Source: Planktothricoides sp. SR001
GTDB lineage: Bacteria > Cyanobacteriota > Cyanobacteriia > Cyanobacteriales > Laspinemataceae
Length of the DNA: 63,392 nucleotides
Direction: 5' to 3'
Assembly: GCF_001276715.1 (NCBI RefSeq)
Contig: NZ_LIUQ01000002.1
Span: 18,554 to 81,945, forward strand
Shown: positions 20,988 to 29,574 of the stretch, in pieces
Layout of the letters: every line of letters starts with the position of its first letter
Position numbering within the stretch: the first letter of the stretch is position 1
Notes under the pieces: generated by a model
What the model saw: the letters and a program-made list of their open reading frames with translations, nothing else
The model's database searches: none
What the model was told of the DNA's origin: nothing
Program-made: the position numbers and the translations under genes

Positions 20988-21614
20988 CTATTCCATTAAT
21001 TCACGCACTTTCTCTAAGGGTAAATCTAGCACTTCGGCAATTTGTTCTGCGCTTAAACCCAGTTGGATTAATTTGGATAAACTATTTAATTTGGTTTCGT
21101 ATAAAAGAGTTTCAAAGGCGCGTTCGCGAAGCGTTGCGGATGCAACATCGCGAAGCGGCGCGGATGCAACATCGCGAAGGGGTTCCGATGCGCGATCGCG
21201 AAGCGTCCGGGAATCGCCACTGGTTTTTGTCTTGTCTTGAATTAATTCTTGATTTCCCGCATCTTCATTTTCTAATCTTGGGCGATCGGAATTAGGACAA
21301 AGATTAATATTACCAACACGAACACGATTTCCAATGAGAGTAGACTGATAATTTGCGAATCCTAACCGTTGAACTGTAGCGCAAAAATTCGACCTATTAA
21401 CATCTTCCCCAAAAGTCTTTGACAGAACTTGCCAAAGTTTATAGGCTTCATCTTTAACATGACCTTTGGTGCATTTATACTGTTTGGCAATTTCGGGATA
21501 CTTCTGACCATTGAGCACTCCCTTCAAAATTTCCACTTGCAGACTATCAAGGTGTTTCCTGGTTTGTTTAAAGACCAATTCATCAATTGACTGCAACACA
21601 GTTTCCCAGTCCAT
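20988..21614 (-). CDS. vMAP-type N-terminal HTH protein with octapeptide repeats
   Basis: A 208-residue protein. Residues 1-72 match the N-terminal helix-turn-helix of cyanobacterial vWA-MoxR-associated proteins (LDSLQVEILKGVLNGQKYPEIAKQYKCTKGHVKDEAYKLWQVLSKTFGE); the NB-ARC protein at 28192 has the same domain. Next comes a poorly conserved linker, then four 8-residue repeats of the form LRDxASxx (about residues 138-169) encoded by 24-bp tandem DNA repeats at 21108-21203. The end, LGLSAEQIAEVLDLPLEKV, is a second small helix-turn-helix-like motif seen in Rpn-type transposase relatives. No effector domain is present, so it may be a stand-alone regulator. Ten-bp-phased repeats lie just upstream of its start. 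Confidence 0.75.
   Translation of the reverse strand: MDWETVLQSIDELVFKQTRKHLDSLQVEILKGVLNGQKYPEIAKQYKCTKGHVKDEAYKLWQVLSKTFGEDVNRSNFCATVQRLGFANYQSTLIGNRVRVGNINLCPNSDRPRLENEDAGNQELIQDKTKTSGDSRTLRDRASEPLRDVASAPLRDVASATLRERAFETLLYETKLNSLSKLIQLGLSAEQIAEVLDLPLEKVRELME
21108..21203 (-). repeat. Four 24-bp tandem repeats inside the vMAP-HTH gene
   Basis: Units at 21108-21131, 21132-21155, 21156-21179 and 21180-21203. On the coding strand each begins CTTCGCGA and encodes one LR(D/E)xA(S/F)xx octapeptide. Units two and three differ at only three positions. The same words (TTGCGGATGCAAC) recur at 33477-33510 in spacer DNA, so the array derives from a dispersed repeat. Confidence 0.85.
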
Positions 21615-21640
21615 TCCTTTATGATGACTCCTCTGAAATT

Positions 21641-21740
21641 TTACCCGCCATTATCCGCCATTATCCGTCATTATCCGCCCGCTTAACATTTTTTAATAAA
21701 AGTCCCGTCTTTATCAGTCTTTTTCCGCCCTTTTCCGTCT
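21641..21740 (-). promoter_or_regulatory. Eight 10-bp-phased direct repeats upstream of the vMAP-HTH gene
   Basis: Four contiguous decamers fill 21641-21680 (TTATCCGCCA-like) and four more fill 21701-21740 (TTTTCCGCCC-like). The 20-bp gap keeps all eight in the same 10-bp register. The array lies 27-126 bp before the minus-strand start codon at 21614. In the gene's own direction the motif reads TGGCGGATAA. Sites repeating once per helical turn suggest cooperative binding on one DNA face, perhaps by the HTH protein itself. Confidence 0.65.
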
Positions 21741-22256
21741 TGTCGATTGTGTCTGTGTCAGATGACAATAGAGATTATGTGAGCGTATAGCATTTTTCAA
21801 TCAGACAGATAATTAATCTGTCATTATTTTTGATTGTTGATGCAGAAATCCAAGGAAAATCCAGAATATGCAACCTGTCTAGAAAAATATTGTTAGAAAA
21901 TAGAAGGGGGTGCAGAAAAACTCGCCTAGATACCCAAAGATTAAAGTAGCGCGGGACAAGGCTCATAACTTATGATCTTATCATAGGTGATAACGGCACT
22001 GGGAGAGAAGATATCTTACAGGATATCGTGCTGCCATTGGCATTGGTGACAGGTCGAATTTGAGATATTATACCCGATTTTGACTGGAATGGTTTTCTTT
22101 CTGGTCGCGATTAAATCTGATTATAATAGTCTAAACTGCGGGCATCCCATCTTTGTAAAAAGACTTATTCTTACTCTTTTCTCTATCCTCTCTCCTCTTT
22201 CTTACAATACAGAAAATGATCCGGTCTAAAATCAAACTTACAGGGTAGTTAAATTA
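21741..22256. other. Intergenic region upstream of the cold-shock-like gene
   Basis: About 500 bp with no supported gene; the 63-residue open frame near 21775-21966 is not protein-like. It must hold the promoter of the plus-strand gene at 22257, but no clear box stands out. Confidence 0.5.
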
Positions 22257-23258
22257 ATGAATATCGAATTTGGTCAGGTTCAGGAATATAATGGAAGAGG
22301 CTTTGGCTTTGTAAGCCGCACCCTTAAGAAAACAAATCAACGCAGTAGTAAAGGTGTTTGGTTTCACATAAGTAAAATTAAGTATGATTATCCACAACTG
22401 GCGGAACAGTTAGACTCTGGGTGTGTAGAAAATGTTAGCTTCTGGTACGAAATCGAGCATACCGAACGCGAAAAAGTTAGTCTAATTTGGCTAGATGCTA
22501 AGGATATCCCCGAACCTCATAAAACTGATTTAGTTGCCTATATGGAGAAAATTTGGTGTGATATTGACAATTCGGCACCAGAATGGCTAGGTGAAATTAC
22601 AATTGCTTTAGTTGGAGAAAATCAAAAAAATGAGTTAACTCAGAAACGTAATGACCTAATTAATCAGCGGCAAGAATTAGAGCAAAAAAATCAAACAAGC
22701 CAGCCATCTATACTTGAAAAAATTAGAAAATATAGACTTGAGGCAAGGAGCAATGAAGAACCTCAACGGGTTTATATTGGTTTGCCAGAAAATTTTGTCA
22801 ATCGTGTATTTTGGGTTGCAGATATATATCGAACAAATATTCAGTCACATGAACCTGGTGGTTATGATGTGGTTGTCGAATATGATAATGAAGTGGTACG
22901 TGGCTATGATCGGATTAAAACGCCATCAGCTTATATTGCCAGCTTTTTTTATGGAGAAATAGTGAAAGTTTATGCTAGAAAAACCGCAGACGAAGACGAA
23001 TATTCTACTGCTTCTTTTGAGGAAGTCTGGAATATTGAATCTTCTAAGGAAGATCCTTGTGAAGCATTAAAAATTTTTCAGCAAAAACAAGAACAAAAAA
23101 ATAAACCTTCTCTCTTACAAGTTTCGGGAATCTTTGAAAGTCAGGATGAATTTGAAACATTCGATTCGGGAGATGTTTGGGAAAGTTGGTACAATGAAGA
23201 CGAGGGTCAGTGGTATTTTGGAGAATGTCCTGAGTGTAATATCCCAGATAGAGATTGA
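22257..23258 (+). CDS. Protein of unknown function with a cold-shock-like N-terminal domain
   Basis: A 333-residue protein I do not recognise as a whole. Residues 1-75 resemble a cold-shock OB fold: a glycine-bracketed RNP1-like strand (GRGFGFVS, 13-20) and WFHISKI (36-42) in the expected order. Residues about 120-160 are a charged, Gln/Glu-rich predicted coiled coil (NELTQKRNDLINQRQELEQ). The remainder is rich in acidic and aromatic residues and ends with a Cys pair (GECPECNIPDRD), which might bind a metal. A DNA- or RNA-binding role is a guess from the N-terminus only. Its low GC and isolation among repeats fit an accessory gene. Confidence 0.65.
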   Translation: MNIEFGQVQEYNGRGFGFVSRTLKKTNQRSSKGVWFHISKIKYDYPQLAEQLDSGCVENVSFWYEIEHTEREKVSLIWLDAKDIPEPHKTDLVAYMEKIWCDIDNSAPEWLGEITIALVGENQKNELTQKRNDLINQRQELEQKNQTSQPSILEKIRKYRLEARSNEEPQRVYIGLPENFVNRVFWVADIYRTNIQSHEPGGYDVVVEYDNEVVRGYDRIKTPSAYIASFFYGEIVKVYARKTADEDEYSTASFEEVWNIESSKEDPCEALKIFQQKQEQKNKPSLLQVSGIFESQDEFETFDSGDVWESWYNEDEGQWYFGECPECNIPDRD

Positions 23259-23293
23259 TTTACATTGGGGTTTATAACGGTTTTTAAGTAATG

Positions 23294-23361
23294 GTAGGGT
23301 GCGTTAGGCGGGGATAATATTTTGCGGAAAATAAATAATCTCTAAGTCCGCCTAACGCACC
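23294..23361. repeat. MITE-like element family B, copy 1
   Basis: GGTGCGTTAGGCG (23298-23310) is exactly complementary to 23349-23361. Shares its ends with the copies at 23438, 23542 and 29586, but the interior differs. Confidence 0.75.
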
Positions 23362-23437
23362 AAATCATCGGCATAATCATCGACCCATTATCGAAAATTT
23401 TTATTGATTAAATTATCGGATTAATATTATATAATTA

Positions 23438-23506
23438 GGTGCGTTACGGCGCGATTGTAAATTATTGGTTGAAGTTTGAAATTATTTCGCGCCTAACACA
23501 CCCTAC
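23438..23506. repeat. MITE-like element family B, copy 2 (69 bp)
   Basis: Starts GGTGCGTTACGGCGCGATT and ends CGCGCCTAACACACCCTAC, with the next copy 35 bp away. The ends pair with a single-base bulge. Length is identical to copy 3, the middle is diverged. Confidence 0.8.
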
Positions 23507-23541
23507 GCTGAATTATCGCATTTATTTTTAGAAGAAAATAT

Positions 23542-23610
23542 GGTGCGTTACGGCGCGATTTTCAAGGGTTGGTTTGAGTTAAAGATAGTTTCGCGCCTAA
23601 CACACCCTAC
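23542..23610. repeat. MITE-like element family B, copy 3 (69 bp)
   Basis: Same 19-bp left end and 19-bp right end as copy 2, in the same orientation, with a different 31-bp middle. Together the three copies occupy most of the spacer before the DUF433 gene. Confidence 0.8.
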
Positions 23611-23702
23611 CCTGAATATGTGCGATCGCCTCTTTCCCCCCAAACAGCGATCGCCTGATGATATAATTTAATCAAAGCTTAATCAAAGCCCTAATTTTTA
23701 CT

Positions 23703-23933
23703 ATGAAAACATTAACTAGAATTACTCTTAATCCCCAAGTTATGGGTGGTAAACCTTGCATTCGAGGGATGAGAGTAACCGTAGGAGCGATCGTTGGTCT
23801 AATGGCCTCCGGTCACACCCCCGCTGACATTTTGAAAGCCTATCCTTATTTAGAAGAAGCCGATATATATGAAGCCCTAGCTTATGCAGCTTGGCGAGTA
23901 GAAGAACAAGAAGTACCCCTGATGGTGACATGA
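23703..23933 (+). CDS. DUF433-family antitoxin-like protein
   Basis: A 76-residue protein of the DUF433 family. It has the hallmark NPQVMGGKPCIRGMRVTV (residues 11-28) and a C-terminal helix-turn-helix-like part (HTPADILKAYPYLEEADIYEALAYAAWR). DUF433 proteins are typically the antitoxin/DNA-binding partner of PIN-like DUF5615 toxins. Here the stop codon overlaps the next start as ATGA, the classic arrangement for such a pair. Confidence 0.9.
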   Translation: MKTLTRITLNPQVMGGKPCIRGMRVTVGAIVGLMASGHTPADILKAYPYLEEADIYEALAYAAWRVEEQEVPLMVT

Positions 23934-24307
23934 AAATATTAATAGACATGAACCTATCACCGGATTGAGTTGGGATTTTTGCTAAATATTCAATTGAGTC
24001 AGTTCACTGGTTAAATGTGGGAGATCCAGCCGCCATAGACCAAATAATTATGAATTGGGCTAATACTAACGGCTATATTGTTTTCACTCACGACCTGGAT
24101 TTTGGCATACTTCTAGCCACTACCCAAGCTACCGCTCCAAGTGTAATTCAAGTAAGAACGCAAGATATCTTACCTACTACCTTGGAAAATATCGTAATTC
24201 AAGTTCTGCGTCAGTTTGAATCCGAATTAGATCGCGGTGCTTTAATTACGATCGATCCCGCTCGTTCTCGAGTTAAAATTTTGCCGATTATTCCATCTAA
24301 GTCATAA
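23930..24307 (+). pseudogene. DUF5615 PIN-like toxin, interrupted by an in-frame TGA
   Basis: From the ATG overlapping the DUF433 stop, the frame reads MKILIDMNLSPD and then TGA (23966-23968). It continues in the same frame as VGIFAKYSIESVHWLNVGDPAA to the end at 24307, with GYIVFTHDLDFGILLA and a normal C-terminus. Family members usually have Trp at the position of the TGA, so a single TGG-to-TGA change explains the break. Full length would be 125 residues. A GTG at 24017 opens the remaining frame but would lack the N-terminal acidic residue (D6) of the PIN-like active site. The toxin is therefore probably dead. Confidence 0.85.
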
Positions 24308-24316
24308 TTATGATGT

Positions 24317-24352
24317 GCGATTCCCGTCTCTGGATCCGCTGCGCGGAATCGC
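24317..24352. repeat. Palindromic GCGATTCC...GGAATCGC element in spacer
   Basis: GCGATTCC (24317-24324) pairs with GGAATCGC (24345-24352), with GGATCCGC/GCGGAATC nested inside. It belongs to the same family as the in-frame copies at 19000, 37484 and 40448. Confidence 0.65.
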
Positions 24353-24538
24353 CTCTTTTCCCACAAGGAAAGAACCGGGTTTTTTCGATAAATTTTGTTA
24401 GTTAATCCCTGCAATGGAATAAAAACCCGGTTTCTCAACTAAACAGCGATCGCCTCTTTTCCCACAAGGAGAGAACCGGGTTTTTTCGATAAATGTATGC
24501 TTGTCAACCTAGATGTTGGGTAAAAACCCGGTTTCTAT
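24351..24538. repeat. Two direct copies of an AACCGGGTTTTTTCGATAAA hairpin repeat
   Basis: A unit beginning GCCTCTTTTCCCACAAGGA occurs at 24351 and 24452. Each is followed by AGAACCGGGTTTTTTCG and closed by AAAAACCCGGTTTCT (24421-24435 and 24522-24536), so each can form a hairpin. A shorter relative follows argB (60330-60355). They may act as terminators for the toxin-antitoxin operon and argD. Together with the palindrome at 24317 they account for most of 24308-24714. Confidence 0.7.
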
Positions 24539-24714
24539 TCGTGAGCGATCACCCTTTCACGCTCTATTTTTCTCCAACTGACTCAAGTCATATCGACTTT
24601 ATAACTATCTTCAGCAGTCAGCTATTAGCCCCTGATACCTGATCGCTGACTGCTGATAGCTAGAATGAATTAGTGAATCACCACCAAAAAGCTTTAGACC
24701 CTTTAGAAGACCCT

Positions 24715-25992
24715 TTAGACCAGTTGCGCGATCGCACTTTCAAACAGTTGCAAAGCTCGATCGATTTCTGCGGCAGAAACAATTAACGGAGGAACAAAGC
24801 GCACCACTTTCGGGCCTGCGGGAACTAACAGCAATCCTTGAGAAATTGCCGCTTTCACCAGGTCAGTAGAAGCGATCGGGCTATCTGCCTTTAATTCCAA
24901 ACCATTAATCAAACCCCAGCCGCGCACTTCCTCCACCAGAGTGGGATATTTAGCGGCGATCGCCTGTAAACCTTGGCGCAACTGTTGCCCCCGGTCTTGG
25001 ACATTCGCCAGTAAATTTTCGCTTTCCAAAGTATGACAAACCGCCAAAGCGACCGCACAAGCAAAGGGGTTGCCGCCAAAAGTGCTGGCATGATCCCCCG
25101 GTTTAAACACATCACAATGGGATTTGCACAACAGCGCCCCAATGGGAATGCCACCGCCCAACCCTTTGGCAGAAGTAAAAATATCCGGTTCAATGCCCAG
25201 ATTTTCATAACCCCAAAGTTTGCCAGAACGTCCCATTCCCACTTGGACTTCATCCAAAATCAGCAAAATGCCTTTTTCATCGCAAATTTGGCGAATTGCT
25301 TGGAAATAAGCCACGTCACCGGGACGGACACCCCCCTCTCCTTGCAAAGCTTCCAGCATAATGGCCGCCACGCGCCGTTTTTCGCCCCCGTCGAGTTGGG
25401 CGATCGCGGCTTTAATCGCTTCCAAGTCATTAAACGGCACATAGCAAAATCCGGGCACCAGGGGATCGAAATTCTTCTGATATTTAGGTTGACCCGTAGC
25501 TGTAATAGTGGCCAAAGTCCGCCCGTGGAAACTCGCATGGGCAGTTAAAATCACTGGGTCGTCAATATTTAACACCGTATGGGCGTATTTGCGGGCCAAT
25601 TTAATCGCCCCCTCGTTCGCTTCGGCCCCGGAATTGCAGAAAAAAGCGCGATCGGCGCAAGAACGATCCACCAACCACTGAGCCAACTGACCTTGTACCG
25701 GGATATAGTACAAATTAGAAACATGGTGCAATGTTTGCATTTGCTGCGTCACTGCCGCCACCATTGCCGGGTGAGCGTGTCCTAGGGTACAAGTAGCAAT
25801 TCCCGCCACAAAATCTAGATATTCTTTCCCGTCCGTATCCCATACGCGACAGCCGTCGCCTTTGGTCAAAGCAATGGGAAAACGGCCATAAGTTTCCATC
25901 ACCGCATCGTCAAATTCAGCCGCACTAAAGGAGTTAAACTCCTTTGAAGTCGAGGTGACAGAAGGTTTTTGAGTTAAAGTTTCTGGAGTCAC
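24715..25992 (-). CDS. argD: Acetylornithine aminotransferase
   Basis: PLP-dependent class III aminotransferase of arginine synthesis, converting N-acetylglutamate semialdehyde to N-acetylornithine. The Schiff-base lysine is K276 in TSAKGLGGGIPIGA, and the PLP-binding Asp is D247 in LILDEVQVGMGRSGKLW. The block FVAGIATCTLGHAHPAM and the glycine-rich CNSGAEANEGAIKLAR are intact. At 425 residues it has a roughly 20-residue N-terminal extension before the conserved core, usual in cyanobacteria. It is a core gene embedded in the accessory region; argB, the preceding enzyme, lies 34 kb away near the other end. Confidence 0.95.
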   Translation of the reverse strand: MTPETLTQKPSVTSTSKEFNSFSAAEFDDAVMETYGRFPIALTKGDGCRVWDTDGKEYLDFVAGIATCTLGHAHPAMVAAVTQQMQTLHHVSNLYYIPVQGQLAQWLVDRSCADRAFFCNSGAEANEGAIKLARKYAHTVLNIDDPVILTAHASFHGRTLATITATGQPKYQKNFDPLVPGFCYVPFNDLEAIKAAIAQLDGGEKRRVAAIMLEALQGEGGVRPGDVAYFQAIRQICDEKGILLILDEVQVGMGRSGKLWGYENLGIEPDIFTSAKGLGGGIPIGALLCKSHCDVFKPGDHASTFGGNPFACAVALAVCHTLESENLLANVQDRGQQLRQGLQAIAAKYPTLVEEVRGWGLINGLELKADSPIASTDLVKAAISQGLLLVPAGPKVVRFVPPLIVSAAEIDRALQLFESAIAQLV

Positions 25993-26100
25993 CGGCAGTT
26001 CCTCTCATCATAATTTCAATGCCTTATTCGGATTTAGTATAGTGAAAAGCGATCGACAAGACTGTTATGTGCGATCGGACTCTCACGAATTATTTTGTTA

Positions 26101-26129
26101 TTGGGTAGGGATTCTTTTGTTGCTTGTTG
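26101..26129 (+). repeat. 29-nt dispersed repeat, copy 2
   Basis: Identical over 29 nt to 14994-15022. Confidence 0.7.
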
Positions 26130-26317
26130 TTTGTTGTTTGTTGTTGGTTATTTGTTATTTGTTGGTCGTCGCTGATAGGGAGAGAAACGAAACACTCACC
26201 ACGAATCAGTCATCACCCATAACCATCAAAAATTGGAGAAAATCCTGTTAAGAGTTATAATGATTCCAGAGTAAATGCTTTGGTATTTGGCAGCATCCCA
26301 TATTTGCAAATCAGATA

Positions 26318-26414
26318 GTAGGGGCGAAGCATTCGGGTAATTATCTTAATGGTGAAAACCGAGAATTAACTGCCCGTAGGCGAAGCTTTATCGAAGAGTA
26401 TGCTTCGCCCTTAC
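26318..26414. repeat. MITE-like element family A, copy 2 (97 bp)
   Basis: Left end GTAGGGGCGAAGCATTCGGG; right end ATGCTTCGCCCTTAC, complementary with one G-T pair. Same length as copy 4 at 27361 and similar inside (TTGCCCG, CGAAGCTTTA). Confidence 0.75.
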
Positions 26415-26473
26415 AGACCCGGACAAAACAATCATTTTTCCAGTCAACAATATTATTTTGCGGAGGCTTGAAC

Positions 26474-26764
26474 ATGACTCAAGTTACTAACCATCAAACG
26501 AATAGTCAAAAATTAACCCAAATTGTCGAAACCTTAATTAACAATAATCCGATTTACCAAGAAAACTTGGATCGCCAGGAAATGATTCTGATGATTAATC
26601 AAAATTTTAATCCGGTAGCCATTCCCGACCTGAATAGTATTTCAGAGGAAGAATTAACCAAACGGATTAAAAGTATTTTGTCTTTAAATTTAGTCTCAGG
26701 AATGCTCAATGATTTTACTCCAGAGCAAATGCGACTTTTTGATGAATCAGTTAAGCGAGGGTAA
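26474..26764 (+). CDS. Small protein upstream of a VapC-type toxin; putative antitoxin
   Basis: A 96-residue protein with no domain I can name. It is mostly helical and hydrophilic. Its stop codon abuts the ATG of the PIN-domain gene, the position expected for the antitoxin. A GGAGG box 7 nt before the ATG at 26474 decides the start over the TTG two codons earlier, which would overlap that box. No RHH, AbrB or Phd-type DNA-binding motif is visible, so if it is an antitoxin its family is not obvious. Confidence 0.7.
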   Translation: MTQVTNHQTNSQKLTQIVETLINNNPIYQENLDRQEMILMINQNFNPVAIPDLNSISEEELTKRIKSILSLNLVSGMLNDFTPEQMRLFDESVKRG

Positions 26765-27169
26765 ATGGGTTATTTATTAGATACTAACATTGTTTCCGCT
26801 TTTCTCAAACAAAATCCAGAAATCGGATTAAAAATCAGAGAACTCAGGTATCAAGGTCAATTTATTGGTATTAGTGGGATAACTTACTATGAAATCCAAA
26901 GAGGTCTGCTCAGAACTAATGCCACCAAAAAACTGGCTTTATTTGAACAATTTTGTCAAGATTATCCCATTTTATTTTTAGATGATCTGAGGATTTTTCA
27001 AAAAGCATCAGAAATTGATGCAGATTTAACCCGTCAAGGGAGGATTATTCAAGATGCAGATATTTTGATCGCCGCTACTGCGATCGCTCATGGATTAATT
27101 TTAGTTTCCCACGATTCTGACTTAACTAGGGTTAAAGACTTACAGCTAGAAAATTGGTTAATAGCGTAA
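26765..27169 (+). CDS. PIN-domain ribonuclease, VapC type
   Basis: A 134-residue PIN domain. The acidic quartet is present: D6 in YLLDTNIVSAFLK, E43 in ITYYEIQRGLL, D97/D99 in IIQDADILIAATA, and D117/D119 in SHDSDLTRV. VapC toxins cleave tRNA or rRNA when free of antitoxin. The ATG follows the preceding stop codon with no gap, so translation is coupled. The gene is followed by two MITE-like elements and a long palindrome. Confidence 0.88.
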   Translation: MGYLLDTNIVSAFLKQNPEIGLKIRELRYQGQFIGISGITYYEIQRGLLRTNATKKLALFEQFCQDYPILFLDDLRIFQKASEIDADLTRQGRIIQDADILIAATAIAHGLILVSHDSDLTRVKDLQLENWLIA

Positions 27170-27173
27170 ACCT

Positions 27174-27275
27174 GTAGGGGCGAAGCATTCCGGCAGATAA
27201 ATTATTGGTTAAAAGCAGAAACTTTATCCCGGAATGCTTCGCCCTCACTGCGGTAATGCTTCGCTAACGCCCTAC
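27174..27275. repeat. MITE-like element family A, copy 3
   Basis: Left end GTAGGGGCGAAGCATTCCGG directly after vapC. Two candidate right ends (CCGGAATGCTTCGCCCTCAC ending 27248 and ATGCTTCGCTAACGCCCTAC ending near 27275) suggest a rearranged or partly duplicated end. Confidence 0.65.
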
Positions 27276-27360
27276 CAATATTTGTGATTCAGGCAATAGA
27301 AAATTTCTGTAATGCGATCAAAGAAGGAATAAATACTTTTATTTAAATCATATTTAACCA

Positions 27361-27457
27361 GTAGGGGCGAAGCATTCGGGTAACAACTACTGTGAAAACC
27401 CATATTTATTGCCCGGTAAGCGAAGCTATGCCGTCAGGCTTTATGCTTCGCCCCTAC
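27361..27457. repeat. MITE-like element family A, copy 4 (97 bp)
   Basis: Left end GTAGGGGCGAAGCATTCGGG at 27361; right end ATGCTTCGCCCCTAC ending 27457, a perfect complement of the first 15 bp. Confidence 0.8.
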
Positions 27458-27531
27458 ATTTACGGCAAAAATTATTGAGTAAAACAATAAAAAAATAGAT
27501 TAATTTAACTTAATTTAACAAAGTAAAAACA

Positions 27532-27576
27532 TAAATCATAGTAAATTTTATTCAGAATAAAATTTACTATGATTTA
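27532..27576. repeat. 45-bp near-continuous palindrome (22-bp arms, 1-nt centre)
   Basis: Arms 27532-27553 and 27555-27576 are exactly complementary around a single A at 27554. The arm includes CATAGTAAATTTTATTC. It lies between the converging vapC and glycine-zipper genes. It could be a bidirectional terminator, but it lacks a GC-rich stem. Confidence 0.85.
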
Positions 27577-27593
27577 AATATGTAAAATAGTAT

Positions 27594-27657
27594 GTAGGAT
27601 GTACAGCTATTATAATTGTTGGTAAAAATATTAATTTATAATAGCTGCACACCCTAC
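27594..27657. repeat. 64-bp inverted-repeat element with GTAGG/CCTAC ends
   Basis: The left end, starting GTAGGATGTACAGCTATTA, and the right end, ending GCTGCACACCCTAC, are complementary over 22 bp with two mismatches. The CACACCCTAC end links it to family B elements. Confidence 0.7.
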
Positions 27658-27675
27658 GGCTGACTTTCTTGATTA

Positions 27676-27891
27676 CTAGACAGAAGCTCCTCCGTCTCCG
27701 CCCAATCCGCCAAGCGCTGCTCCTTTTGCGGCTCCAATCTTAGCACCCACAACCGCCCCTGCAGGACCTCCGAAGAAAAATCCAACAAGTCCGACTGTTG
27801 CAGCTCCTACCACTGCGGTTGTAACAACTCTAGCAGTTGTTTTTGCAACTTCTTTTCCAACTTCTTTGGCCAAATCATCACTCTCACTCAT
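27676..27891 (-). CDS. Small glycine-zipper hydrophobic peptide
   Basis: A 71-residue protein. Residues 1-20 are charged (SESDDLAKEVGKEVAK). About 21-62 is a hydrophobic stretch full of small residues with repeated GxxxG/AxxxG spacing (VVGAATVGLVGFFFGGPAGAVVGAKIGAAKGAALGG). It ends GGDGGASV. Such glycine zippers form membrane-inserting helices in bacteriocins, small toxins and outer-membrane lipoproteins. No secretion signal, peptidase or export gene is near. A GGAGG box 8 nt before the ATG supports translation. It is divergent from the vMAP-HTH/NB-ARC gene 300 bp away, so a link to that protein is possible but unproven. Confidence 0.7.
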   Translation of the reverse strand: MSESDDLAKEVGKEVAKTTARVVTTAVVGAATVGLVGFFFGGPAGAVVGAKIGAAKGAALGGLGGDGGASV

Positions 27892-28040
27892 AATTATGCC
27901 TCCAAGTCTAATAAACCTATAATTCCACTGTGAATGCAGTATCCGAATTTTTTCTTAAGCAAATCAGTCAATTTAGGATGATTTGCTTAATATCTGACAT
28001 TATACTTTGTCATTTTTAGATTGGGTTGAAATTGAAGTGG

Positions 28041-28160
28041 CATTTAGTGGGAAAATTAGATTGGCGGGATTTAGTGTGATATAGTGGGATTTAGTGGGGC
28101 GGTTTAGTTCTCGGTTTACAAAAGTTAAAAATTAGTGGCAAACAGTGGGTTTTGGTGTCA
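28041..28160 (+). promoter_or_regulatory. Phased AGTGGG repeats upstream of the vMAP-HTH/NB-ARC gene
   Basis: Motifs like TTAGTGGGAT recur in exact 10-bp steps: GCGGGA at 28064, AGTGTGA at 28073, AGTGGGA at 28083 and AGTGGGG at 28093. A second block follows with AGTGGC at 28134, AGTGGG at 28144 and GGTGTC at 28154. A further AGTGG is at 28046. They lie 30-150 bp before the start codon. The G-rich strand is the coding strand, as it is upstream of the other vMAP-HTH gene. Confidence 0.6.
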
Positions 28161-28191: not shown

Positions 28192-29574
28192 ATGGATATT
28201 CAAGAATTGTCAAAATGGACGGATGAGCAGGTATTCGCTAAAACCAGACAACATCTTGATTCTTTACAAAAATCTATATTAGAAAGTGTTTTACAATATA
28301 AAAATTTTCAAAACATTGCCAACCAAAATGGATATAGTTACGATCATGTCAAAAAAGAGGGGGCAAAATTATGGAAACTTCTCTCTGGCGTTTTTGATGA
28401 AGCTATTGAGCAAAGCAATGTGCGGGCGATTTTAGAAAATAAAGCTGGATCTACTATTTACAGTTTTGGGGATTCATCGTTAATTATTAGTAATCATAAT
28501 ATTAAGAAAAATCATGTGAATATTTGTAGGGGGAATCCCCAGATTTTAGAGGATACAGAAAAGCGATCGCCCTCTGTGCCAGTTCCCAATAAAGTTCCGC
28601 TTGTGGATCTAACCACCGCCCCAGAATTAAACTATAATTACGGGCGCGATTCAGAAATTTATACTCTGAAATCATGGATGGTCGATGATCGGGCTCGGTT
28701 AATTACAATTTATGGCTTAAGTGGGATGGGGAAAACCGCTTTGATTCTTAAATTAATCTCAGAAATTCAGAGAAAATTTGATTATATTATTTATCGGGGT
28801 CTTGAACCTTTGCCTAAACTGGGGAAGCTGAAAGACCACCTGACGCATTTTTTGGCTGAATCCTCAGCCAGTCCCTTGCCAGAAATTATTGATTATTTTC
28901 GTTCATCTCGTTGTTTAGTAATCCTGGATAACGTGCAGCATCTTTTTAAACCAGGTCATTTAGCGGGTCATTATTTAGCAGAATATAAAGATTATCATAA
29001 TTTTTTTCAGCAAGTGGCGACCTCCTCTCATCAAAGTTGTTTGATTTTAAGTAGTTGGGAGAAACCTGGAGATATCGAGACTTTAGAAAAGGAAAACGAG
29101 TACACAAAATCCTTAAAGATTGAAGGCTTAGGAGCATCGGCTAAAGATATTTTTAGACAAAAAAAGTTACAAGATGAGTCAATCTGGGATGAATTAATCC
29201 AGCGATATCAAGGTCATCCGGGTTGGTTAAATATTATCTCGGCAACAATTCTGGAGTTATTTGACGGCAGGGCTGCTCATTTGATTGAAAGAGAGGAGTT
29301 GTTTTTAGGTGATATAGAAGCAAAATTAGAGTTTCAGTTAGAGCGGTTATCAGAATTAGAAAAGAAGGTGGTTCACTGGTTGGCAATTCAAGATGAGGCG
29401 ATCGCAATTTCCCAAACCTATGCTAATCTGGAAGTATCTCAAAGTAAATTTTGGCAGATTATGCAATCTTTAAATAGACGCTGTTTAGTAGAAAAAGTCG
29501 CCGGACAAGAACCTGCAAAATTTCAGCTAAATTCTATTGTTAAAGCCTATCTAGGGTTTTCATGTTTGATGTAA
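28192..29574 (+). CDS. vMAP-HTH plus NB-ARC STAND ATPase without a sensor domain
   Basis: A 460-residue protein. Residues 8-75 are the vMAP N-terminal HTH (LDSLQKSILESVLQ...GYSYDHVKKEGAKLWKLLSGVF), 76-140 a linker, and 148-420 an NB-ARC/STAND NTPase. The entry motif is YNYGRDSEI, Walker A is GLSGMGKT (175-182) and Walker B is CLVILDNVQ (241-249). A winged-helix-like part follows (LEKKVVHWLAIQDEAIAISQTY). Most cyanobacterial relatives go on into WD40 or TPR sensor repeats. This one stops at a normal stop codon right after the winged helix, so it is either a sensor-less form or a truncation. STAND proteins of this kind are thought to act in conflict or signalling systems. An AGGAGG box precedes the start by 11 nt. 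Confidence 0.85.
   Translation: MDIQELSKWTDEQVFAKTRQHLDSLQKSILESVLQYKNFQNIANQNGYSYDHVKKEGAKLWKLLSGVFDEAIEQSNVRAILENKAGSTIYSFGDSSLIISNHNIKKNHVNICRGNPQILEDTEKRSPSVPVPNKVPLVDLTTAPELNYNYGRDSEIYTLKSWMVDDRARLITIYGLSGMGKTALILKLISEIQRKFDYIIYRGLEPLPKLGKLKDHLTHFLAESSASPLPEIIDYFRSSRCLVILDNVQHLFKPGHLAGHYLAEYKDYHNFFQQVATSSHQSCLILSSWEKPGDIETLEKENEYTKSLKIEGLGASAKDIFRQKKLQDESIWDELIQRYQGHPGWLNIISATILELFDGRAAHLIEREELFLGDIEAKLEFQLERLSELEKKVVHWLAIQDEAIAISQTYANLEVSQSKFWQIMQSLNRRCLVEKVAGQEPAKFQLNSIVKAYLGFSCLM

Follow-up and report, generated by a model that had tools for sequence, protein, structure and literature searches.

Two genes in a 63,392-bp stretch of the cyanobacterium Planktothricoides sp. SR001 (NCBI RefSeq assembly GCF_001276715.1, contig NZ_LIUQ01000002.1, positions 18,554 to 81,945; the whole stretch is referred to as the window, and its own numbering is used) encode a related helix-turn-helix (HTH) domain, and each is preceded by arrays of short motifs repeating about once every 10 bp. 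Gene 1 (20988..21614, minus strand) encodes P0001, a 208-residue HTH-only protein with no P-loop motif, in which the HTH domain occupies residues 1-84 (21363-21614, minus). Gene 2 (28192..29574, plus strand) encodes P0002, a 460-residue protein in which the HTH domain (28192-28443, plus) is joined to a STAND-type ATPase with the P-loop GLSGMGKT. In Pfam the ATPase scores above the cut-off for AAA_22 and just under it for NB-ARC (22.2 bits, cut-off 23.5) and NACHT (22.2 bits, cut-off 26.7); no C-terminal repeats were found by Pfam in P0002. The two HTH domains share 43% identity across 80 residues (E 5.7e-14).

Assigning the domain to a known family is less straightforward. No HTH model of Pfam or NCBIfam scores above its cut-off for either protein, leaving the label vMAP-HTH given to both genes by the initial annotation unconfirmed, and no Pfam match to an OmpR-type winged HTH or bacterial transcriptional activation domain is seen in P0001 or P0002 at E up to 1. 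A profile of the HTH domain retrieves no relative among solved structures by sequence (a single chance-level match, E 0.59). The AlphaFold model of P0001 residues 1-96 consists of five helices and zero strands, and fold comparison of this model ranks NarL/LuxR-type domains best, with sigma region 4 also among the matches. From the model together with the covariation described below, the recognition helix is placed at residues 50-68; its N-terminal part (residues 50-60) lies at 21435..21467 (minus) in gene 1. In this helix P0001 has Gly51, His52, Lys54 and Asp55, where P0002 has Asp51, His52, Lys54 and Lys55. Against PADLOC defence models P0001 has no match at E up to 1, and the matches of P0002 are short and lie only around the P-loop (best E 3.4e-4, 17.6 bits). 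Gene 1 also contains an in-frame 24-bp tandem repeat of 3.4 copies (21124-21205) between the HTH and the C-terminal end, and the P0001 C-terminus (residues 163-206, 20997-21128) is similar to the final part of Rpn-family nuclease/transposase proteins, in a match that stays under the cut-off (TIGR01784, E 0.0029).

Arrays upstream of the two genes

Upstream of gene 1, eight G(A/G)C(G/T)G cores share a single 10-bp register and form two blocks of four, with a 30-bp step between the blocks. The distal block (21700..21743, minus) has cores at 21739, 21729, 21719 and 21709, and the proximal block (21644..21683, minus) has cores at 21679, 21669, 21659 and 21649. The last core runs directly into a -10-like box, TAAAAT (21638..21643, minus), which starts 6 bp past the last core G; the resulting GGCGGG-TAAAAT arrangement at 21649-21638 obeys the register seen throughout the family. 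Upstream of gene 2, a block of four units (28064..28099, plus) reads GCGGGA at 28064, GTGTGA at 28074, GTGGGA at 28084 and GTGGGG at 28094, the first start being 28064 as read from the sequence and 28063 as placed by a pattern script, and a block of three (28135..28160, plus) starts at 28135, 28145 and 28155. No clear -10 box follows the block of three in the usual register.

These arrays were scored against 400 dinucleotide shuffles of each upstream region, none of which reached the observed score: gene 1 scores 5.19 against a shuffle maximum of 2.89, and gene 2 passes narrowly, with 3.21 against 2.96. The eight gene 1 decamers reported in the initial annotation are thus real and correctly placed, as are its four and three gene 2 motifs at exact 10-bp steps, to which a further pair, GTGGCA and GTGGGA (28037..28052, plus; starts 28037 and 28047, 10 bp apart), can be added. 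Two of its statements hold in part. The genes do share a common unit, yet not a single motif, as the in-register words are G(A/G)CGGA for gene 1 and GTGGGA for gene 2 and differ in their specifying bases. Similarly, occupation of one DNA face applies within a block of four and not strictly across all eight units, because, with 10.5 bp to the turn, each 10-bp step adds a drift of about 17 degrees.

Arrays across the genome and the phylum

The HTH domain is encoded at 50 places in the 7.07-Mb genome, 49 of them with E <1e-3 and some being fragments, and a P-loop motif is found at 32 of the 50; the named near relatives of the genome are filamentous cyanobacteria. The 200 bp upstream of each place were compared with the upstream regions of 160 control genes drawn from 400 kb of this genome. 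In the HTH set, autocorrelation computed for lags 3-33 has its peaks at 10, 20 and 30 (0.342, 0.317 and 0.302; z 5.1, 5.3 and 5.5), whereas the controls show no peak at these lags (0.285, 0.275 and 0.264). A periodicity of this kind upstream of HTH genes and not of others is what had been predicted for a family of such operators. In a scan for local repeats at lags 7-15, 16 of the 50 HTH upstreams reach a score of at least 20 and 12 of these have lag 10, compared with 1 of the 27 qualifying controls (of 160), in which lag 7 is commonest (13).

Homologues were then drawn from each of the 14 genomes of the family, from 80 of the 292 genomes in a phylum-wide sample, and from named loci (the best 80 of 126, including Microcoleus, Planktothrix, Okeania, Laspinema, Oscillatoria and Spirulina). 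Records were dropped if the protein or upstream region was a duplicate, if the hidden Markov model score was under 40 bits, if the match began late in the profile, or if fewer than 120 bp of upstream sequence were available; this reduced 324 records to 282 non-redundant HTH genes. Arrays were detected by a word-chain finder that is blind to the protein and by expectation maximisation (EM) of the register on DNA alone. An array score of at least 2.5 is reached by 168 of 282 HTH upstreams and 19 of 160 controls, and 198 of 282 score above all 40 of their own shuffles, where about 7 would be expected, compared with 26 of 159 controls (a control containing masked bases being excluded). The 168 arrays hold 3-9 units, mostly 3-5, and the 236 adjacent steps listed outside the first set comprise 187 of 10 bp, 33 of 9, 12 of 11 and 4 of 12. 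As the finder rewards steps of 9-12 bp, and 10 bp most, these step counts lean toward 10 bp, and the unbiased evidence for the period is that of the autocorrelation and the local-repeat scan. A family profile scores at least 18 in 181 of 282 HTH upstreams and 0 of 160 controls, a result that is partly circular because the profile was built from these same genes. Identity in 50 ortholog-like pairs adds little (cores 91.1%, linkers 89.2%, last unit to ATG 87.3%, upstream flank 77.6%).

The unit and its lock to the -10 box

Register EM gives the unit as (A/T)4-G-T-N-G-G-A, and it is found on the sense strand in 166 of the 168 array genes. Of the 168 array genes, 114 have a -10 box, defined by T1, A2 and T6 with at least 5 of 6 bases matched and a start 25-55 bp before the ATG; the number is 44 among the 160 controls, whose starts are mechanical open reading frames (ORFs) rather than annotated ones, which may lower their share. 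The distance from core G to the -10 box takes preferred values, with 49 cores at 6 bp, 50 at 16, 39 at 26, 25 at 36 and 16 at 46; of 480 distances, 204 equal 6 modulo 10. A unit directly adjoins the -10 box, in the 6-bp slot, in 66 of 114 promoters, compared with 4% in shuffles. At the usual spacing, 32 of 110 array promoters and 21 of 94 controls agree with TTGACA in at least 4 of its 6 bases; the array fills the spacer and the place of the -35 box.

The geometry bears on a simpler account, in which the arrays are phased A-tracts or slippage repeats that curve the DNA or are neutral and go unread by the HTH protein. The linkers are A-rich and recur every ~10 bp, and 7-bp repeats are the commonest local repeats in control upstreams. 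Neither curvature nor slippage, however, predicts the lock to the -10 box, the nearly uniform sense orientation, or the covariation of core bases with the protein described next, and this account is considered highly improbable.

Gene-specific words and the recognition helix

For covariation, 195 genes with an array score of at least 2.3 were reduced to 84 representatives below 70% identity, motifs were extracted blind to the proteins, undetermined core bases were set aside, and 504 base-residue pairs were compared with 400 permutations. The signal peaks in the recognition helix, pairing base 1 with residue 54 (z 13.1), base 5 with residue 52 (11.8), base 3 with residues 55 and 51 (11.5 and 11.0) as well as 58 (9.6), and base 4 with residue 55 (8.9); none of the 400 permutations reached any of these six pairs. 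Mean z is 2.74 at residues 49-58 and 0.48-0.73 elsewhere. At base 3, Gly51 goes with C in 31 of 32 cases, Asp51 with G in 9 of 11 and Ser51 with A in 10 of 18; both window genes fit this pairing (Gly51/C and Asp51/G). The words are gene-specific, each tending to match the recognition helix of the encoded protein, and the suggestion in the initial annotation that the encoded HTH itself is the binder gains support, at the level of sequence, from this covariation.

The weight of this evidence is limited because related genes share both protein and promoter. Shared descent alone, by which HTH genes would duplicate together with their promoters so that related proteins have related arrays without direct readout, fits the common cores of close relatives, the fact that residues outside the helix covary to some extent, and the weak gain out of sample. 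It does not account for the concentration of covarying residues in the helix, nor for a signal that holds among 41 representatives below 60% identity and that survives, for base 3 above all, stratification by similarity of the rest of the domain; in that test residues 51 and 55 lead for base 3, with odds ratios of 7.2 and 7.0 where the next residue has 2.1 and the median is 1.0, and residue 54 leads narrowly for base 1 (odds ratio 3.4, next 3.0). On balance shared descent alone appears very unlikely to be the explanation.

A table learned inside the family was also used to predict the cores of genes outside it. At an 80% identity cut, base 3 is predicted from residues 51 and 55 in 46 of 55 cases, compared with 35 by majority guess (always C), and base 1 in 48 of 57, compared with 43; for base 1 a small gain is kept at the 70% cut (26 of 31, compared with 23).

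Within one genome the cores differ as well: 30 genes yield 22 different 5-base strings, of which several are noisy calls. This argues against occupation of all arrays by another DNA-binding protein, not the encoded HTH, for which the common features of the unit (the A-tract, G at 1, T at 2 and A at 6) could otherwise be taken as a signature: cores vary within one genome and track the helix of the downstream gene, so that a single foreign binder is hardly credible.

The step between units has a separate correlate. Steps of 9 bp are found in 7 of 7 representatives with Tyr24 and in 2 of 79 others; residues 83, 70, 48 and 46 follow with lower scores. Residue 24 sits outside the recognition helix and is a lead to a subunit interface that sets the step, and the Tyr24 set may be one clade.

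Probable self-addressed control

Taken together, it is highly likely that array-bearing members of this HTH family, whether HTH alone or fused to a STAND/NB-ARC-type ATPase, are self-addressed regulators of their own promoters. In the mechanism that we infer, a promoter would carry 3-9 head-to-tail units of ~10 bp with core bases suited to the recognition helix of the protein that the next gene encodes, and HTH copies would bind side by side, head to tail and cooperatively, one word each, with contacts between neighbours setting the step. The filled array would extend from the immediate upstream side of the -10 box to around position -50 or farther, the protein would thereby control its own gene, and the ATPase domain, where present, would probably gate oligomerisation. 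The HTH genes very probably control themselves rather than one another. A genome search for G(A/T)N(G/C)G repeated every 10 bp exactly does not point to a large regulon: 36 matches were found, compared with 26 for the reversed control, and 12 of the 36 sit at five HTH genes. Eight of the fifteen other places were opened, and in six of these the array lies inside an ORF of at least 90 residues.

A number of results weigh against this interpretation. Not every HTH gene has a detectable array, since 114 of 282 score below 2.5 and 84 of 282 fail to beat their own shuffles, and, as mentioned, 26 of 159 controls do beat theirs. With pairs stratified as above, residue 18 comes first for base 4 and residue 65 for base 5, above or level with residues 55 and 52; residues 18 and 65 are invariant or nearly so, and 65 is at the far end of the recognition helix. 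The same test gives base 2 no clear partner among residues 51-55, and in a covariation test on one genome residues 10 and 8 are also in the top five. The out-of-sample gain for base 3 is lost at the 70% cut (23 of 29, compared with 25 by majority), and base 5 from residue 52 gains at neither cut (47 of 54 compared with 49, and 28 of 30 compared with 28). By nearest neighbour, the helix predicts base 3 little better than the rest of the domain (60.5 of 80, compared with 53.5 of 81) and base 4 worse (58.8 compared with 62, of 84). Lastly, clear arrays are lacking at a phage copy of the domain and at divergent plasmid-borne relatives: none was found at the HTH copy of the Planktothrix phage PaV-LD, and eight plasmid relatives have no array of at least 4 units, L367 and L368 having three short units and the others at most 2.

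Should self-addressed control be correct, about 50 uncharacterised HTH/NB-ARC-type genes in this species become a testable system with predicted operators, and the family becomes a natural test case for how many paralogous transcription factors could be kept separate within a single cell. It would also provide a base-by-residue table readable from genomes, and self-specific arrays that could serve as separate promoter parts in cyanobacteria. If it is true that ATPase modules assemble on the array, STAND oligomerisation would be linked directly to DNA. A bolder and rather doubtful extension is a two-part address code for STAND-type switches throughout the phylum, in which residues 51, 52, 54 and 55 would set the core bases and the surface around residue 24 the step, with dozens of paralogues owning private arrays; the array would then be a template for ATPase assembly, making the promoter both operator and ruler for an oligomeric signalling complex.

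Known systems and the sign of control

Two features recall SARP promoters: the arrays are locked to the -10 box, and a -35 box is lacking. In the published passages on SARP promoters, repeats lie 11 or 22 bp apart with the last 8 bp from the -10 element, and activation is described as resembling sigma adaptation; AfsR has two repeats at -19 to -40 and a nucleotide-binding oligomerization domain (PMC10936776, PMC5930380 for SARP promoters; PMC10936776 for AfsR). As in these passages, an N-terminal DNA-binding domain is joined here to a putative nucleotide-binding oligomerization domain (as in AfsR), tandem direct repeats are spaced by roughly one turn of the helix and keep a constant distance to the -10 box, and cooperative binding of monomers is proposed (PMC10936776, PMC5930380). 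The DNA-binding domain itself differs, being OmpR-type in SARP and NarL/sigma-4-like here (PMC10936776, PMC5930380). In the accounts consulted, SARP repeats number two or three, whereas 3-9 units are found here, mostly at 10-bp (9-11) steps and with the last often abutting the -10 box; dozens of paralogues with differing cores are a further distinction.

BldC offers a second parallel. According to the parts of its description cited, it occupies a variable number of direct repeats on promoters (9-bp sites), coating DNA head to tail, and repression is suggested (PMC5859096). Its head-to-tail cooperative array is shown by structure, while the one proposed here is drawn from repeat geometry only (PMC5859096). 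BldC is MerR-like and controls a regulon, and paralogues with private operators are not described for it in the same text (PMC5859096).

These precedents frame the question of sign. Repression by the filled array is argued because a unit abuts the -10 box, and it is given about an even chance. Positive autoregulation in the SARP/AfsR manner, differing from the mechanism above only in sign, is a possibility of lesser standing: protomers over the spacer and missing -35 box would recruit RNA polymerase by sigma adaptation. With the start of the -10 box taken as -12, the units at 16 and 26 bp from it would lie near the AfsR repeat positions; a minority of array promoters match the -35 consensus, the units are exactly locked to the -10 box, and AfsR likewise has a nucleotide-binding oligomerization domain. 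For an activator, however, the unit abutting the -10 box in over half of the promoters counted should clash with RNA polymerase, and every -10 box counted agrees with the consensus in 5 or more of 6 bases, in part because the cut-off was set there, so these promoters need not be weak. A mixed switch or some other mode appears unlikely.

The NarL/LuxR (GerE) and sigma region 4 DNA-binding domains are also among the closest known systems. The sites of MalT are direct repeats and its HTH is C-terminal, unlike the N-terminal HTH of the 460-residue P0002, in which no sensor repeats were found. As in MalT and other STAND activators (PMC4381067), a putative STAND ATPase is joined here to a putative LuxR-type HTH. 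Among recombination directionality factors, Apl is described as using direct-repeat sites one helical turn apart and as also regulating transcription, and RdfS as an oligomeric winged HTH; in contrast to the arrays here, both serve excision, apparently with no paralogue family holding private words in the excerpts consulted.

Arrays of this kind were not found described in titles and abstract openings of the literature on vMAP/vWA-MoxR HTH, STAND/NB-ARC-HTH, SARP, BldC, MalT or recognition-helix paralogues (subscription papers and preprints being outside this scope), and are unmentioned in the passages of vMAP papers and of one paper on cyanobacterial sigma factors that were covered. The mode, namely direct repeats, a cooperative HTH and a STAND partner, is known already; the new part is the gene-by-gene words in a family of dozens, the readable code, and the lock to the -10 box.

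Other arrays and relatives

The family profile, run over 463,392 bases of the Planktothricoides genome, returned 23 hits scoring at least 18. Three of the top six are the window arrays, and the top one is an orphan array of 7 units (L060 1420-1489, minus; G000:C138 about 101419-101488) just past a 107-residue ORF. No HTH gene lies on its strand within 1.4 kb downstream; the orphan may be what is left of a lost gene, or a regulated target. A further array, of three units (GTCGGATTAA steps; L002 913-939), is situated 588 bp upstream of an HTH-ATPase gene that has its own array at its start.

Relatives of P0002 are also found on cyanobacterial plasmids, where 72 records matched, 33 from Nostoc and 21 predicted to be conjugative, at about 27-32% identity. 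The eight opened (L361-L368), mentioned above, are proteins of ~1,200 residues with a divergent HTH, four being annotated as WD-40 and four as NB-ARC. In phage PaV-LD, the HTH is encoded by ORF120L (L360 2983-3300; 45% identity), annotated as hypothetical. Other genes of the same run encode an FtsK/SpoIIIE-like protein and a junction endonuclease, and a DNA adenine methylase is encoded close by.

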